Assembly: GCA_021199475.1 (NCBI GenBank)
Contig: JAJQHZ010000028.1
Coordinates: forward strand, 1-37,653
DNA from: Lachnospiraceae bacterium
GTDB taxonomy: Bacteria; Bacillota; Clostridia; Lachnospirales; Lachnospiraceae
Direction of reading: 5' to 3'
Length of the DNA: 37,653 nucleotides
Shown: positions 9,440 to 33,725 of the stretch, piece after piece
Layout: each line of letters opens with the position of its first letter
How positions within the stretch are numbered: the first letter of the stretch is position 1
Translations under genes and position numbers: made by a program
The notes under the pieces: generated by a model
What the model saw: only the letters and a program-made list of their open reading frames with translations
Databases searched by the model: none
Told to the model about the DNA's origin: nothing

Positions 9440-10630
9440 TCACCACGAAATCTTCAGCGAATCAATATAACCCGCCAGCTCCTCCGCCATTTCTTCTGCC
9501 TCCGGTATCCGGATGTGTCCCGGCGTCCCGGCTCCGTTCCTTTTATAAAGGAAATGATGAACCTTCGGGTCGTTCAGAGCACTGCATACCGAATCGATCG
9601 CGAGATCCCAGCTTTTATCATGCTCCAGAATGGTCGTCGCCAGGATTACCTCCGCTTCCGGATACAGCTCCCGGATCCGGCGAACAAACGCGCCATAGCA
9701 CTCCCGCCAGTGCGCGGCCTGCGCGCCTTCATAATCTTCCTTCATAAAATCATAAGGATGGCTGTCATTCTGCCCCACCGCGATGACCACGACCTGCGGC
9801 GTCCAGAGCGAAAAATCCCATGGCTTGATCACGCCGAGCGCCGGGCTGTAGCGGAGCTTGTCATATACACTCTCCATTCCGACATAATCCGTATCATTGT
9901 ACCAGCCAATGCCGTCAATGAGCGCAACACCGCCCTGCGCAATGTCGTGAATCTCGGCATTCAGCTTCCGTGCCGTGATCCACGAATACGAATACCAGCT
10001 GTTCGACAGCTCCCCATTGTGCCATTCCGGATCCGGCTTCCCCACATAGTCCACCGCCTCGGATACCTCACCGGCAGAGACGCTGTCGCCATAGACCTCG
10101 ATTCGCCGCTCTGGCTTCGGCGGACACGGCAGCAGTTCCATCACGCCCCGGATTTCTATTCCGTGCAGGGTAAATGTATGGCAGGAGTCCATCCGTTTGA
10201 ACAGCAGCAGGCTGTGCTCGCCCGGCGCAAGGTTCTCTGCAACCGTATAGGTCTGCCGCTCCGTATTTTCAATCCGAAGCTTCCCCTGCTCTCCATCCAG
10301 AATATAGCCCAGATAGTTGTCGCAATACGCATTTTTGTTCGTCACAGTCACAAGCACGGCAGCGTCCGTACCTGAATCGACTTCTGCACGGTCAGCGCCG
10401 TCCACGCACGAATCGGCTTCCACACGGTCAGCGCCGCCCACGCATGAGTCGGCTCCCGCACGGTCAGCGCCGCCCACACACGAATCGGCTTCCGCGCGGT
10501 CAGCGCCGCCCTGTACGGTAAAACGCAGCGCGACACTGCTGCACGGAAAGACAAACACCGGTGCTGTCGGCTCCTCAAAATCGATCCTGCCGCTGTACTG
10601 CAGCAGCTCATGATCCGGTGAAATATACAT
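9440..10630 (-). CDS. SGNH hydrolase resembling CE2 acetyl esterases, with an in-frame tandem repeat
   Basis: The 396 residues follow the CE2 acetyl-xylan esterase plan: an N-terminal jelly-roll-like domain, then a GDSL domain with VYGDSVSAGE (Ser183), AVGQND and GHIRIPEAEEMAEEL (His372). The expected role is removal of acetyl groups from oligosaccharides inside the cell, since no signal peptide is present. Residues 42-89 are four 12-residue repeats (key pattern GADRxEADSCVx), each encoded by 36 bp, inserted in a loop of the N-terminal domain. The start at 10630 follows GAAGGAA. It sits between the permease genes and the second SGNH gene, all in one orientation. Confidence 0.87.
   Translation of the reverse strand: MYISPDHELLQYSGRIDFEEPTAPVFVFPCSSVALRFTVQGGADRAEADSCVGGADRAGADSCVGGADRVEADSCVDGADRAEVDSGTDAAVLVTVTNKNAYCDNYLGYILDGEQGKLRIENTERQTYTVAENLAPGEHSLLLFKRMDSCHTFTLHGIEIRGVMELLPCPPKPERRIEVYGDSVSAGEVSEAVDYVGKPDPEWHNGELSNSWYSYSWITARKLNAEIHDIAQGGVALIDGIGWYNDTDYVGMESVYDKLRYSPALGVIKPWDFSLWTPQVVVIAVGQNDSHPYDFMKEDYEGAQAAHWRECYGAFVRRIRELYPEAEVILATTILEHDKSWDLAIDSVCSALNDPKVHHFLYKRNGAGTPGHIRIPEAEEMAEELAGYIDSLKISW
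10377..10512. repeat. Four tandem 36-bp repeats inside the CE2-like esterase gene
   Basis: The 12-mer CGGTCAGCGCCG occurs at 10389, 10425, 10461 and 10497, an exact 36-bp period. Copies differ by only a few bases, which points to recent amplification. The period keeps the reading frame. Confidence 0.92.
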
Positions 10631-16540: not shown

Positions 16541-16678
16541 ACAAAGCGCTTTCAGCGTGAGCAGTGCGGCCTGCACTCGCCGGGTTTTGCCCCCAATCTC
16601 TGATTGTGGGGCGTGGGCATCCCCGCCCCTTTGGGCGGGATATCCACCGAGTCCTATTGATGGGACGTCTCCATATAA
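16541..16678. repeat. Modular hairpin repeat upstream of the LacI gene (copy 3)
   Basis: Two stems follow the block CTCGCCGGG (16576-16584). The first is GCCCC+CAATC with GATTG+GGGGC (16589-16612, one bulged base). The second is ATCC+CGCCC with GGGCG+GGAT (16619-16641). The first stem and its flanks are almost identical to the reverse complement of 25455-25478. The repeat runs into the last codons of the gene at 16654-17469. Confidence 0.75.
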
Positions 16679-17635: not shown

Positions 17636-18790
17636 TCATAAGCCCGTTTTCGTTACTCCCGTCCCGTCAAACGCCGGGATAAAGCACGCGGATGCGGTCG
17701 CCCCTTCCTGATAAAATCCCTGTGTGACCCCGATCGCAACCGCGTAATCCAGAAGCCGCTCATACTCGCGGCGCGTCACCGGACGGGCGAGAACCGGATC
17801 CGGACTTTCCGGCTGCCCCGGCGGCATGTACTGATTCATGAGACTGATATAAATCTGATCGCCAAAGGTCTCATGCAGCCAGGACACGACCCGCTTTGCC
17901 TCGCGCACATGCCCCGGAAGCAGCAAATGGCGAACCATCACGCCCGCCCTCATCAAGCCTTCTCCTGCACGGTTCAAACACATAGCGCTCTTCCCATCGT
18001 CCGCAGACTCCGCAGCCTCAAGGTCGTCCCCTTCAAACTGCGGCCACGGCTGCTGGCGCACCATCTCCCGAATCGCCTCTTTCGCGACCTCCGGATAATC
18101 TTCCGCACAAGAATACAATTTTGCCAGCTCCGGATCCAGATATTTCAGATCCGGCAGATAGATATCCACCAGCCCCTCCAGCATTCGCAGCGTTTCCACC
18201 GTCTCGTAACCGCTGCTGTTCCAGACAATCGGCAGAGATAACCCCTCTTCTTTCGCCCGCCGCAGCGCAGTACAGACCTGCGGTACATAATGGCTAGCTG
18301 TCACCAGATTGATATTGACCGCCCCTTGTGCCTGAAGCTCCAGAAAAATCTCCGCCAGGCGTTCGACCGGAATCTCCGTTCCGATACCGCCATGAGAAAT
18401 CTCCCGGTTCTGGCAAAACACACATCCCAGCGGACACCCGGAAAAAAACACAGCGCCAGAGCCGCTCAAACGCGCAGCGTTTTTTGCATGGGCGGCTCGT
18501 CCTGCCGCCGAGCCCTGGCGAGGGGGCGTTTCCTCTGCGCCGCTCAAACGCGCAGCGTTTTTTGCATGAGCGGCTCGTCCTGCCGCCGAGCCCTGGCGAG
18601 GGGGCATTTCCTCTGCGCCGGAGGTACCGGAAATGCAGGGCTCCTCCCAGAAATGCAGCGCCGCGCGCGCCACCCGGATTTTATCATCCGCATGGCAGCC
18701 CCCTTTTTGTCCGTTTTCGCGGTCCGCACCGCATTTTCGCGGGCAGAGAGTACAGCCATTTCTTTCCCGCGCACCGCTCTTGTAAACCAT
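17636..18790 (-). CDS. Radical SAM protein, putative pyruvate-formate-lyase-activating-like (COG1313), with a 52-residue repeat insert
   Basis: This is a cytoplasmic iron-sulfur enzyme. The radical SAM motif is GCPLGCVFC (Cys119, 123, 126). Ahead of it is the family's Cys-rich N-terminus CTLCPRKCGADR with Cys32. The conserved run ARAALHFWEEPCISG should join directly to GSGAVFFSG. Instead about 52 residues (56-107) intervene: two copies of a 26-residue unit (key parts PPRQGSAAGR and AHAKNAARLS). Both functional blocks flanking the insert are intact, so the protein may still work. I chose the second ATG (18790), 6 nt after AAGGAAGG; the first ATG at 18796 touches it. It lies 12 bp after the EamA gene. 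The substrate protein is unknown. Confidence 0.88.
   Translation of the reverse strand: MVYKSGARERNGCTLCPRKCGADRENGQKGGCHADDKIRVARAALHFWEEPCISGTSGAEEMPPRQGSAAGRAAHAKNAARLSGAEETPPRQGSAAGRAAHAKNAARLSGSGAVFFSGCPLGCVFCQNREISHGGIGTEIPVERLAEIFLELQAQGAVNINLVTASHYVPQVCTALRRAKEEGLSLPIVWNSSGYETVETLRMLEGLVDIYLPDLKYLDPELAKLYSCAEDYPEVAKEAIREMVRQQPWPQFEGDDLEAAESADDGKSAMCLNRAGEGLMRAGVMVRHLLLPGHVREAKRVVSWLHETFGDQIYISLMNQYMPPGQPESPDPVLARPVTRREYERLLDYAVAIGVTQGFYQEGATASACFIPAFDGTGVTKTGL
18463..18618. repeat. Two tandem 78-bp repeats inside the radical SAM gene
   Basis: The units start at 18463 and 18541 and differ at very few bases. Each holds a hairpin (AAACGC/GCGTTT around GCA) and the block TCCTGCCGCCGAGCCCTGGC followed by GAGGGGGC. 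Almost the same block occurs at 32908-32942 inside a glycosyltransferase gene. Confidence 0.93.
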
Positions 18791-18802
18791 ATTCATCCTT
18801 CC

Positions 18803-25011: not shown

Positions 25012-25040
25012 GGACGTTGCTTAAGGATTGACAGGATAAG

Positions 25041-25109
25041 ATTTCACTAGCTGTTATAGATTATGAAATGATACCCCTTGTAGTCTATAACAGTTAGTGA
25101 AATTTTTTT
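25041..25109 (+). terminator. Intrinsic terminator inside the cold-shock gene leader
   Basis: A 20-bp stem with one G-T wobble (25041-25060 with 25084-25103) and a 23-nt loop is followed directly by a run of T (25103-25109). This is a canonical intrinsic terminator placed between the csp promoter and its ribosome binding site at 25138, where it would cut most transcripts to about 90 nt unless it is overridden. Confidence 0.82.
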
Positions 25110-25150
25110 CCGGTCATAAGCTCAAAGCAATATATTTAGGAGGTACCATC

Positions 25151-25351
25151 ATGAACAAAGGTACAGTAAAATGGTTCAACGCAGAAAAAGGTTATGGCTT
25201 TATTACAGGCGAGAACGGATCTGATGTATTCGTACATTTTTCTGCAATCCAGGGCGAAGGCTTCAAGACCCTCGAAGAAGGACAGGCAGTTTCTTATGAT
25301 TTGACAGAAGGCGCTCGCGGAATGCAGGCTGCTAACGTGGTAAAGCTTTAA
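25151..25351 (+). CDS. Cold-shock protein, CspA family
   Basis: This is a 66-residue single cold-shock domain that binds single-stranded RNA and DNA and works as an RNA chaperone. RNP1 KGYGFI (13-18) and RNP2 VFVHF (26-30) are both intact. The length is standard. AGGAGG (25138-25143) precedes the ATG at 25151; a longer in-frame ORF from 25097 starts inside the leader terminator and was rejected. The gene is monocistronic, with its own promoter and a strong terminator after it. The terminator hairpin in its leader suggests expression depends on read-through or refolding. Confidence 0.97.
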
Positions 25352-25366
25352 GAAAATATGTGTGCC

Positions 25367-25403
25367 AAAAAACCGCCGTTCATACGAACGGCGGTTTTTC
25401 TTT
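25367..25403 (+). terminator. Intrinsic terminator of the cold-shock gene
   Basis: AACCGCCGTTC (25371-25381) pairs perfectly with GAACGGCGGTT (25386-25396) around ATAC. It is preceded by an A-run and followed by TTTTTCTTT. Confidence 0.93.
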
Positions 25404-25410
25404 GATGCGC

Positions 25411-25500
25411 AGGGCCGGGCAAGGCATATCCCATGCGAAGCGTGGGATGCCCGCGCCCCACAATCGGAGATTGGGGGCATAACCCGGCGAGGTTGTATTG
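25411..25500. repeat. Modular hairpin repeat (copy 4, inverted) after the cold-shock gene
   Basis: In reverse orientation it has the same order as copy 3: CTCGCCGGGTT, the stem GCCCC+CAATC/GATTG+GGGGC (25455-25478) and then a 9-bp stem (25428-25436 with 25440-25448). The second stem has different bases from copies 1-3 but keeps pairing. TGCGGC/GCCGCA (25499-25514) follows. Confidence 0.75.
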
Positions 25501-26027: not shown

Positions 26028-26159
26028 GAAGCCTCGCCATACTAAATTGCGCTTTCGCGCAATGGCTCGGCCTGCGTCCACGATTTGCTCCGCAAATCAC
26101 GGACATAGTTTGGAAAGCCTCGTCATGCAAATTGTGCCCTCGCACAATGGCTCGGCCTG
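26028..26159. repeat. Duplicated hairpin repeat between DUF3793 and flavodoxin genes
   Basis: Two copies (26028-26074 and 26112-26159) share GCCTCG.CAT and AATGGCTCGGCCTG. Their hairpins are ATTGCGC/GCGCAAT (26046-26063) and ATTGTGC/GCACAAT (26131-26148): a C-G pair in one is a T-A pair in the other. A third stem between them pairs GTCC..GATTTGC with GCAAATC..GGAC (26076-26104). Confidence 0.85.
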
Positions 26160-26176
26160 ATTCCCTACATCTCTTC

Positions 26177-32586: not shown

Positions 32587-33651
32587 TCATTCCATCTTTC
32601 CTAAGTTTTCGCATACGCGTATGCGTTCCCCTTTCTCATACATCCTGCGAAAGGTCACTTCCTGGCTGCATACTCTGGGTCCTTTTGCGATCATATTTTC
32701 CAGGCAGGTCTGGTCCGATTTCTTCTGTTCCTCCGAATAGTTTTCCTTAAACCGCACGATATCCGGATAAAACGGGGATTTTTTCGCGCAGTCCCAGAAA
32801 TACTCCTCATACGGGATGTCGTCGTAGCACCAGGGCTTCTGGAAGAGATTGTAATGAATCAGTTGTGGAAGGGCAGCCTTGTGCGAAGCACAATTCAGTT
32901 GGCTGCCCGTTCTGCCGCCGAACATTGTGAGGGGGCGTTTCCCGTTCTGCAGCACTTCCGCTCCTTTTCCGCCCATCGGCGGCATGGCGTCCCACGTCTC
33001 ATCCAGATAAACAATTTTACCGCTGCACATCGCGTTGATGTAATCCTGGTCAGGAGCAAGACAGTCGAAGTGAAAGGTATGCAGCAGCCAAAGGAAATGG
33101 TCACAGAAGCCCACTTCCCGCATCTTTTTCAAATTCATCAGCAGAATGCCGGAATTGACATACTCATCAATCGGCACACCGACCGCGTTTTCCACATACT
33201 CCACCAGCTGGGGAACCGGCGTGATGGAGCGGTCCGCACAGGCTCCAATAATATTGTCTCCCAGCTCCACCCGGTACAATTCCGAAATATCACCGGGCAC
33301 CACAATGTCACTGTCCAGATAAATGCCCTTATCATACTCAGGAAACCGGTCCGCGATAAACAGTCGGAAATAAATCGTCAATGTAAAATAATCACACCGC
33401 AGCCGGTTTTCCGTCCGGTCGGTAATGCCTGCCAGCTCTTTTTCCATAGAGACAAAACGAATTTCAAACGGCGCGCGCACACCGGCGGCAATCTTATCCT
33501 GGCTCTCTTTCGCTAAATCCTGATGCAGGACAATGATTTGATATCGATATGCTTCGGACGCGTGCTCCTCCATCGAGCGGATGGCGCAGTCCATCCATGG
33601 AGCATAACTCTCATCAGTTGTAAAAAAAATGGGGATAATAGTCTGTTCCAT
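32587..33651 (-). CDS. GT8 family glycosyltransferase with a repeat-derived insert
   Basis: This is a 354-residue nucleotide-sugar glycosyltransferase of family 8. The N-terminus IIPIFFTTDESYAPWMDCAIRS, the DxD motif YLDSDIVV (Asp113, Asp115) and VNSGILLMNLKKMRE are diagnostic. The C-terminal active-site run HYNLFQKPW is at about 266-274. Just before it, residues about 237-262 (GKRPLTMFGGRTGSQLN and on) have no counterpart in the family and are encoded by DNA matching the 78-bp repeat of the radical SAM gene. GAGGAGG precedes the start. It follows another GT8 gene by 74 bp and probably adds sugars to a cell-envelope glycolipid or polymer. Confidence 0.9.
   Translation of the reverse strand: MEQTIIPIFFTTDESYAPWMDCAIRSMEEHASEAYRYQIIVLHQDLAKESQDKIAAGVRAPFEIRFVSMEKELAGITDRTENRLRCDYFTLTIYFRLFIADRFPEYDKGIYLDSDIVVPGDISELYRVELGDNIIGACADRSITPVPQLVEYVENAVGVPIDEYVNSGILLMNLKKMREVGFCDHFLWLLHTFHFDCLAPDQDYINAMCSGKIVYLDETWDAMPPMGGKGAEVLQNGKRPLTMFGGRTGSQLNCASHKAALPQLIHYNLFQKPWCYDDIPYEEYFWDCAKKSPFYPDIVRFKENYSEEQKKSDQTCLENMIAKGPRVCSQEVTFRRMYEKGERIRVCENLGKME
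32885..32950. repeat. In-frame repeat copy inside the GT8 gene
   Basis: A hairpin TTGTGC/GCACAA around GAA (32879-32893) is followed by CTGCCGCCGAACATTG and GAGGGGGCGTTTCC (to 32942). The block 32908-32942 aligns with 18498-18533 of the radical SAM gene with few differences and one single-base indel. Confidence 0.82.
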
Positions 33652-33725
33652 TGGTACCTCCTCACAATACAATTCGCTGCCTCAATGCATGTAACAGCGT
33701 TTTCAGTCGCAGCGGTTCCGCGTCT

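Follow-up and report, generated by a model that had tools for sequence, protein, structure and literature searches.

Why should the same short stretch of DNA lie in frame inside the genes of two unrelated enzymes, and be read there in different frames? The question is raised by the window, i.e., the whole 37,653-nucleotide stretch of a Lachnospiraceae contig that was analysed, in which an earlier note had pointed out that a radical SAM gene contains two tandem 78-bp units and a glycosyltransferase family 8 (GT8) gene a related block, likening both to the palindromic elements of Rickettsia. The following features are concerned:

17636..18796, minus strand: radical SAM host gene (PF04055), 386 aa including the insert
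18536..18613, minus strand: element copy 1, 78 nt = 26 codons, the 5' copy within the radical SAM gene
18458..18535, minus strand: element copy 2, 78 nt, in tandem with copy 1 in the radical SAM gene
32587..33672, minus strand: GT8 host gene (PF01501), 361 aa, TTG start
32870..32944, minus strand: element copy 3, in the GT8 gene, 75 nt = 25 codons

The two tandem units are present in the radical SAM gene as had been reported, with 97% identity and a period of 78. The GT8 block is also there, but the extent given for it (32908-32942) was too short, the whole element being 32870-32944. With a covariance model of the repeat, the cores scored 90.2 bits (copy 1, 18536-18611), 93.8 bits (copy 2, 18458-18533) and 74.4 bits (copy 3, 32870-32942). 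The frame of copy 3 is indeed one base off that of copies 1 and 2, as seen from ETPPRQGSAAGRAAHAKNAARL in the radical SAM gene and GKRPLTMFGGRTGSQLNCASHKAAL in the GT8 gene, and the inner stems AAACGC/GCGTTT and TTGTGC/GCACAA were both found as described.

The repeat is by no means unique to these two sites. In the source genome (G000), a draft of 3.8 Mb in 165 contigs, a search with the 78-nt unit of the kind proposed in the note returned 17 BLAST matches at E ≤ 1e-3, among them the three window copies, and a covariance model seeded with these 17 own-genome copies gave 26 matches at E ≤ 1e-4 (56 with the limit relaxed to E ≤ 1), which places the window repeat beyond chance. Across the genus, the per-genome counts sum to 820 matches, in 23 of 47 genomes at E ≤ 1e-4; carrying genomes have from 1 to 85 matches, with at least 19 in 16 of them, and 24 of the 47 have none. 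All the genomes are drafts, and many or all of them are metagenome-derived. The working set for the rest of the analysis comprised 159 copies, 25 of the 26 from the source genome (C133, at locus L038, was left out) and 134 from relatives, which were sampled as 100 stretches around the best-scoring listed copies of copy-rich genomes, so that decayed copies are under-represented among the 134. Spread via phages, plasmids or viruses was considered and dropped, as phages gave no match for window 18400-18700, plasmids none for a 78-base query and viral contigs none for an exact pattern.

The copies lie mostly within genes. Open frames of at least 150 codons enclose 140 of the 159, 86 of these 140 sharing one frame, and 19 copies are outside such frames. 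Since the longest open frame may be on the wrong strand, a frame call based on codon usage was added; this conservative procedure gave confident calls for 65 of the 159 copies, 56 of them in the majority frame. The length of confidently coding, stop-free copies is 1 mod 3 in 55 of 56 cases, compared with 84 of the other 103, many of which may be coding too. Copies of 76 nt have on average 4.5 of the six frames open, against 3.1 in base shuffles. The commonest predicted passenger, ETPPRxxSAAxRAxxxENASRLxGA, is hydrophilic and has about 26 residues. As the ETPPRxxSAAxR peptide recurs in many proteins, one might think of a conserved protein motif or shared domain instead of a DNA element. Nevertheless, the genes of GT8, SpoIVB and a Gfo/Idh oxidoreductase use the repeat in other frames, which by itself refutes this explanation; besides, homologues lack exactly the insert and the 19 copies mentioned above fall outside the 150-codon frames. 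We give a protein motif practically no chance.

The hosts identified with family models are diverse: radical SAM, GT8, AAA ATPase, SpoIVB, Gfo/Idh, helicase, antiporter subunit, BadF-type activase, HemB, GH3, GH2, macro domain, HflX, PheT, lipoamide dehydrogenase and heavy-metal P-type ATPase. Judging from their domains, PurL, MurF (Mur ligase) and DapL appear to be further hosts, and one more may be Lon, its partial sequence scoring 431.5 bits, under the cut-off of 608. Several proteins are well recognized by their family models with the insert in place, such as HemB (468 bits, cut-off 297), PheT (520, cut-off 402.65), HflX (400.9, cut-off 216.75) and SpoIVB (328.8, cut-off 305.25). In pairs of orthologues that are both filled, the flanks show a pN/pS of 0.08 (15 pooled pairs). 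Hosts such as PheT are generally essential. Their essentiality and the conserved flanks suggest that the insert-bearing proteins are functional.

Alignment of the host proteins with orthologues, which the earlier note had proposed as a check, revealed clean insert-absent forms. In PheT, 26 extra residues are found at one site (FPED|AEVG) in G009, G017 and G020, whereas in 30 of 30 aligned homologues FPED (FPDD in one) is followed directly by the residues downstream of the site. The insert is absent from all 120 listed homologues, none of which has TPP in the region. We also observed that the PheT insert is common to three loci at this one site (L202 in G009, L206 in G020 and L215 in G017) and absent from P0243, a protein 95% identical to that of G009; loss, recombination or repeated insertion at a single site are the alternatives for this pattern. 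For GT8, the 25 residues are missing in 36 of the 38 nearest aligned homologues (the best 38 of 120 listed) and two carry them; GKRPL in the homologue P0028 is perhaps a remnant. No distant orthologue carrying the insert, which the earlier note had named as a refuting outcome, appeared among the 38 aligned GT8 homologues or the 120 listed PheT homologues. The HemB copy of the source genome is nested and has 39 residues, being also present in P0123 (98% identical), and the HemB of G011 (P0127) has a 26-residue copy in the same loop, apparently from an independent insertion. This loop is short in 20 of 25 aligned HemB homologues, and three have other expansions. As to the radical SAM loop, among 26 genus orthologues, grouped by eye, 14 are short, six have element-like inserts and six have other expansions (4 of 30 loci gave no protein in the motif search and were left out), and the insert is decayed in relatives. 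The radical SAM protein of the window (17636-18796, minus strand) has in addition a second expansion (EGDDLEAAESADDGKSAMCLNRAGE); many relatives have a short loop at this place, and in several element-carrying ones its length varies.

Comparison of filled and empty sites at the DNA level defines the inserted unit. Each site was counted once, and tandem and self comparisons, the repetitive-gene pair L275/L212 and the decayed radical SAM pair L194/L159 were left out. At 10 of the 12 distinct sites, the filled allele is longer by the core plus 2 nt than that of an insert-free relative of 80–97% identity. Examples of these junctions are CCGCCTCA-AT-[core]-GATCAG against the empty CCGCCTCAGATCAG, GACGCT-GT-[core]-GATAAT against GACGCTGATGAT, and GGTGAA-GA-[core]-CAGGTA against GGTGAACAG. 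One of the ten sites is −2 against a second, more distant relative, and the two odd sites are −1 and +3 relative to the core. In our reading, the unit measures 78 nt, has two variable leading bases (often RT) and is inserted without target duplication.

These alignments bear directly on whether the repeat is a classical MITE, i.e., an element with terminal inverted repeats that is moved by a DDE transposase and duplicates its target. A two-base target duplication had been hinted at by the early copies and by the flanking dinucleotides over all copies, which match in 36 of 159 cases compared with 17.4 in shuffles (maximum 30), and they also match at the two sites of odd length (GA/GA and AT/AT). 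At the ten core-plus-2 sites, though, they match in none, so that the duplication was overturned by the empty-site alignment and the overall excess is ascribed to base bias. Moreover, GGAAACG at one terminus and GCGGCGCT at the other do not form an inverted repeat and do not pair, the stems being internal. We thus consider a MITE very unlikely.

The unit is a double hairpin of 78 nt, or 26 codons, formed by the two variable bases and a core whose length is 76 nt in 124 of the 159 copies. The first hairpin has conserved mismatches. In the second, the inner stem is conserved and the outer one diverges widely among copies yet keeps pairing. In 127 distinct sequences, 97.2% of the cells pair, compared with 84.8% in shuffles, and 322 cells are changed on both sides, compared with 75; these figures come from an alignment fitted to the model, and the 17 own copies aligned without model fitting give the same covariation picture. 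Slid controls had only 28–37% pairing. The outer stem exists in 62 distinct versions and is perfectly Watson-Crick in 101 of the 127 sequences, with 238 two-sided cells against 10 wobbles and 25 mismatches. Both G.T (10) and A.C (15) cells are rare in it, so neither strand is favoured as RNA. In the first hairpin, G.T cells (23) exceed A.C cells (4), an excess that may partly reflect the RNA scoring used for finding copies. Two pairs of orthologous copies have undergone compensatory changes in place (L192/L227 and L220/L240). As DNA folding of single copies, compared with shuffles, is weak for the radical SAM copies and moderate for the GT8 copy (z from −0.6 to −2.9 for six strands), the structural claim rests on covariation. 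Mobile elements with two hairpins occur also in the mitochondria of fungi; the likeness would lie in the two hairpins and in mobility, and the difference in the organelle.

The repeat belongs to a catalogued family. The curated gathering threshold of the Rfam family RF02987 (GA-cis), 34.7 bits, is passed by two of the three copies in the window, one tandem copy (copy 2 region, plus strand 18455-18537, 40.7 bits) and the GT8 copy (plus strand 32866-32946, 41.0 bits), and the source genome has at least ten matches at E ≤ 1e-5. The earlier note knew of no clostridial equivalent; the sequence family, at least, was already in Rfam as GA-cis. On in-frame palindromes in Lachnospiraceae or Clostridia, no report was found in the accessible parts of the openly licensed literature. 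In the same accessible literature, the sole mention of GA-cis is in one table of the Rfam 15 paper. The Rfam strand is opposite to the majority reading frame of the element. Across the family Lachnospiraceae, 29 of 397 sampled genomes, and 26 of 334 genera, have RF02987 matches, whose number per genome had an upper limit in this search; copies from other genera score up to 95 bits.

In those other genera, GA-cis occupies a different position. A copy was taken to be in a leader if it is followed within 40 nt by an ATG that opens at least 80 codons. Of the 29 copies from other genera, 20 satisfy this on the Rfam strand against 24% at random (three on the opposite strand), and GGAGG is found at the 5' end of 22 of the 29. 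In this genus, the figures are 20 of 158 against 14% at random (24 on the opposite strand), and none of the 158 has the 5' GGAGG. In other genera, 15 of the 29 copies lie inside some open frame of at least 150 codons. The leader test being positive elsewhere and not here, the element would have shifted from the leader position into coding sequence, and we infer descent from GA-cis leader elements in that direction. It was also observed that the 20 copies ahead of start codons in other genera are 1–33 nt away from them, and that GA-cis is sometimes in tandem there with a period of 86–88 (L345, L349 and the 29 loci); in those genera it is possibly a portable ribosome-binding site or a leader regulator.

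All this raises the question of whether GA-cis could be a functional regulatory RNA of each mRNA, whose presence in coding sequence is selected rather than selfish. The Rfam match of the window copies, the placement just ahead of start codons in other genera, as expected for a leader regulator, the strong covariation of the stems and the compensatory changes in orthologous copies are all in its favour. So is the slow divergence of the insert in 16 filled orthologue pairs, 15 of which were pooled because one has stops in the flanks: pS is 0.266 and pN 0.020 in the flanks, against 0.024 and 0.033 in the insert. Likewise, 17 site clusters differ by 8.2% in the flanks, 2.0% at paired element positions and 5.9% at unpaired ones, while random copy pairs differ by 22% and 30% at paired and unpaired positions, respectively. 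Taken as they stand, these figures point to conservation of the insert as nucleic acid rather than as protein. However, we take the slow divergence only as a lead, because copies were selected by high score, the pairs are not independent (some share loci), and the radical SAM insert is decayed in relatives. Against a regulatory RNA also stand the loss of the leader position and of GGAGG in this genus, the majority frame on the strand opposite to that of Rfam, the outer stem favouring no RNA strand, and the absence of an evident common theme among the host genes. On balance, we think that a regulatory role for each copy is improbable.

Evidence of movement comes from the copies themselves. Identical cores are found at different sites, L223:1208 and L223:3896 in G017 and L237:1148 in G007, and both L223 sites are empty in relatives. 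Copies cluster modestly. In G017, left-end matches form five pairs within 120 nt where 0.12 are expected, six pairs at 121–2000 nt (1.7 expected; random maximum 9), and 10 at 2–10 kb against 7.3 expected, so there is no excess at the latter distance. The 26 copies of the source genome form one pair within 120 nt, five at 121–2000 nt and none at 2–10 kb. Tandem arrays with a period of 78 are found at several loci (L230, L247 and L267).

Regarding the mobilising enzyme, three families were considered as linked candidates and rejected, as their presence does not explain copy number and all three are absent from G010. The Y1 family (PF01797) is found in 24 of 47 genomes, 10 of the 16 copy-rich ones (at least 19 copies) and 14 of the other 31; reverse transcriptases (PF00078) in 31 of 47, with a slight lean to the copy-rich genomes (13 of 16, against 18 of 31); and IS110 (PF02371) in 23 of 47, 9 of 16 and 14 of 31, respectively. 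G010 is about 100% complete and has 39 copies, yet no member of any of these families was detected in it at the thresholds applied. A larger element sharing the left end was likewise rejected for the source genome, where the 21 left-end matches (at most one mismatch) are all at element copies, 20 strong ones and a weak one (C149, E 0.0017). HUH enzymes act on hairpins and insert without target duplication, which would fit a Y1 (RAYT) transposase acting on a REP-like palindrome. We nonetheless consider this unlikely in view of the distribution of PF01797, its absence from G010 and the lack of a larger element with a matching left end in the source genome; a Y1 enzyme may have since been lost from the carrying genomes.

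Taking all the evidence together, we think it very probable that the repeat is a short, non-autonomous, mobile double-hairpin element, translated in host proteins, which belongs to the GA-cis family and has taken up a new niche. The two adjacent hairpins would be inserted precisely and without duplicating the target, sometimes near the parent copy: in the same gene, in the same gene cluster or head to tail. Copies landing in protein loops would survive and, on translation, add some 26 hydrophilic residues as a passenger, given that the unit has 78 nt, or a length differing from it by a multiple of three, and is mostly without stop codons. Movement might proceed via a folded DNA strand and some enzyme, or via strand switching associated with replication; for such a DNA-hairpin route, we see the chances as about even. 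A dedicated transposase that is still active seems to us rather doubtful. Because the arms of the outer stem change together without strand preference, the hairpins may be kept at the DNA level. A more far-reaching proposal, tentative and in our opinion somewhat unlikely as a whole, is that the arms template one another or the folded DNA strand transposes, that hairpins are maintained as DNA after insertion, and that in this one genus a former leader GA-cis has become a translated mobile element with no need of a dedicated transposase.

How does this element compare with known systems? The Rickettsia palindromic elements (RPE) are also short palindromic repeats found in frame in unrelated protein genes and in intergenic regions, and their mobilising enzyme is unknown, according to the available parts of PMC2229807 and PMC10969869. 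They differ in belonging to another phylum and in their length, 105–146 bp compared with 78 nt here; in the same parts of PMC2229807, they are given 12-bp terminal inverted repeats, whereas the present element has two adjacent hairpins and no such repeats. The available text of PMC2229807 also has a title on protein-coding palindromes of Wolbachia in its reference list. The likeness to RPE put forward in the earlier note is supported: the inserts are palindromic and mobile, they lie in frame in conserved genes of unrelated proteins, and orthologues without them exist, so that in its behaviour the element would work like RPE. With GA-cis it shares sequence and structure; the difference is that the catalogue entry for GA-cis is an sRNA of the opposite strand and that elsewhere GA-cis precedes start codons with GGAGG, while here it is mostly intragenic. 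The 107-bp Correia, YPAL, ERIC and RU repeats, which are small and have open frames that can be fused to those of other sequences, are mainly intergenic and mostly have inverted repeats and target duplications, as far as the available text of PMC2229807 goes; the present element has neither of the latter features. According to the same text, several bacteria have small repeats fused in frame, and wide spread through conserved protein genes has been described for Rickettsia.

We think that the value of this case lies in offering a parallel to Rickettsia in another phylum, in which 820 matches in one genus, empty sites at the DNA level and core-enzyme hosts make insertion, tolerance and mobility accessible to direct tests. 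A further suggestion from this case is that a small-RNA family of Rfam can act as a mobile DNA element and that covariation by itself need not imply an RNA function.

Other repeats are found in the same genome. A second dispersed repeat occurs twice in the window, at 16575-16655 (minus strand) and 25444-25491 (plus strand), and has 31 own-genome matches; of 24 copies scanned, 13 lie in an open frame of 150 codons or longer. The element in hemB contains an in-frame piece of this second repeat (G000 C62:18194-18227). A third repeat, at L035:1548-1610 (G000 C123:56528-56590) and also at L033 and L037, has 41 own-genome matches and is nested inside 127-nt versions of the element; among 16 copies scanned, 7 are within open frames of at least 150 codons. 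At 26044-26079 and 26129-26164 of the window there are two copies, 85 nt apart, of yet another palindromic repeat (AAATTGYGC...GCRCAATGGCTCGGCCTG). A cspA thermoregulator RNA (RF01766, 82.2 bits, cut-off 78) was matched at 25013-25400 on the plus strand, over a cold-shock-like gene, and 36-nt tandem repeats are located at 10349-10492, inside a predicted open frame.
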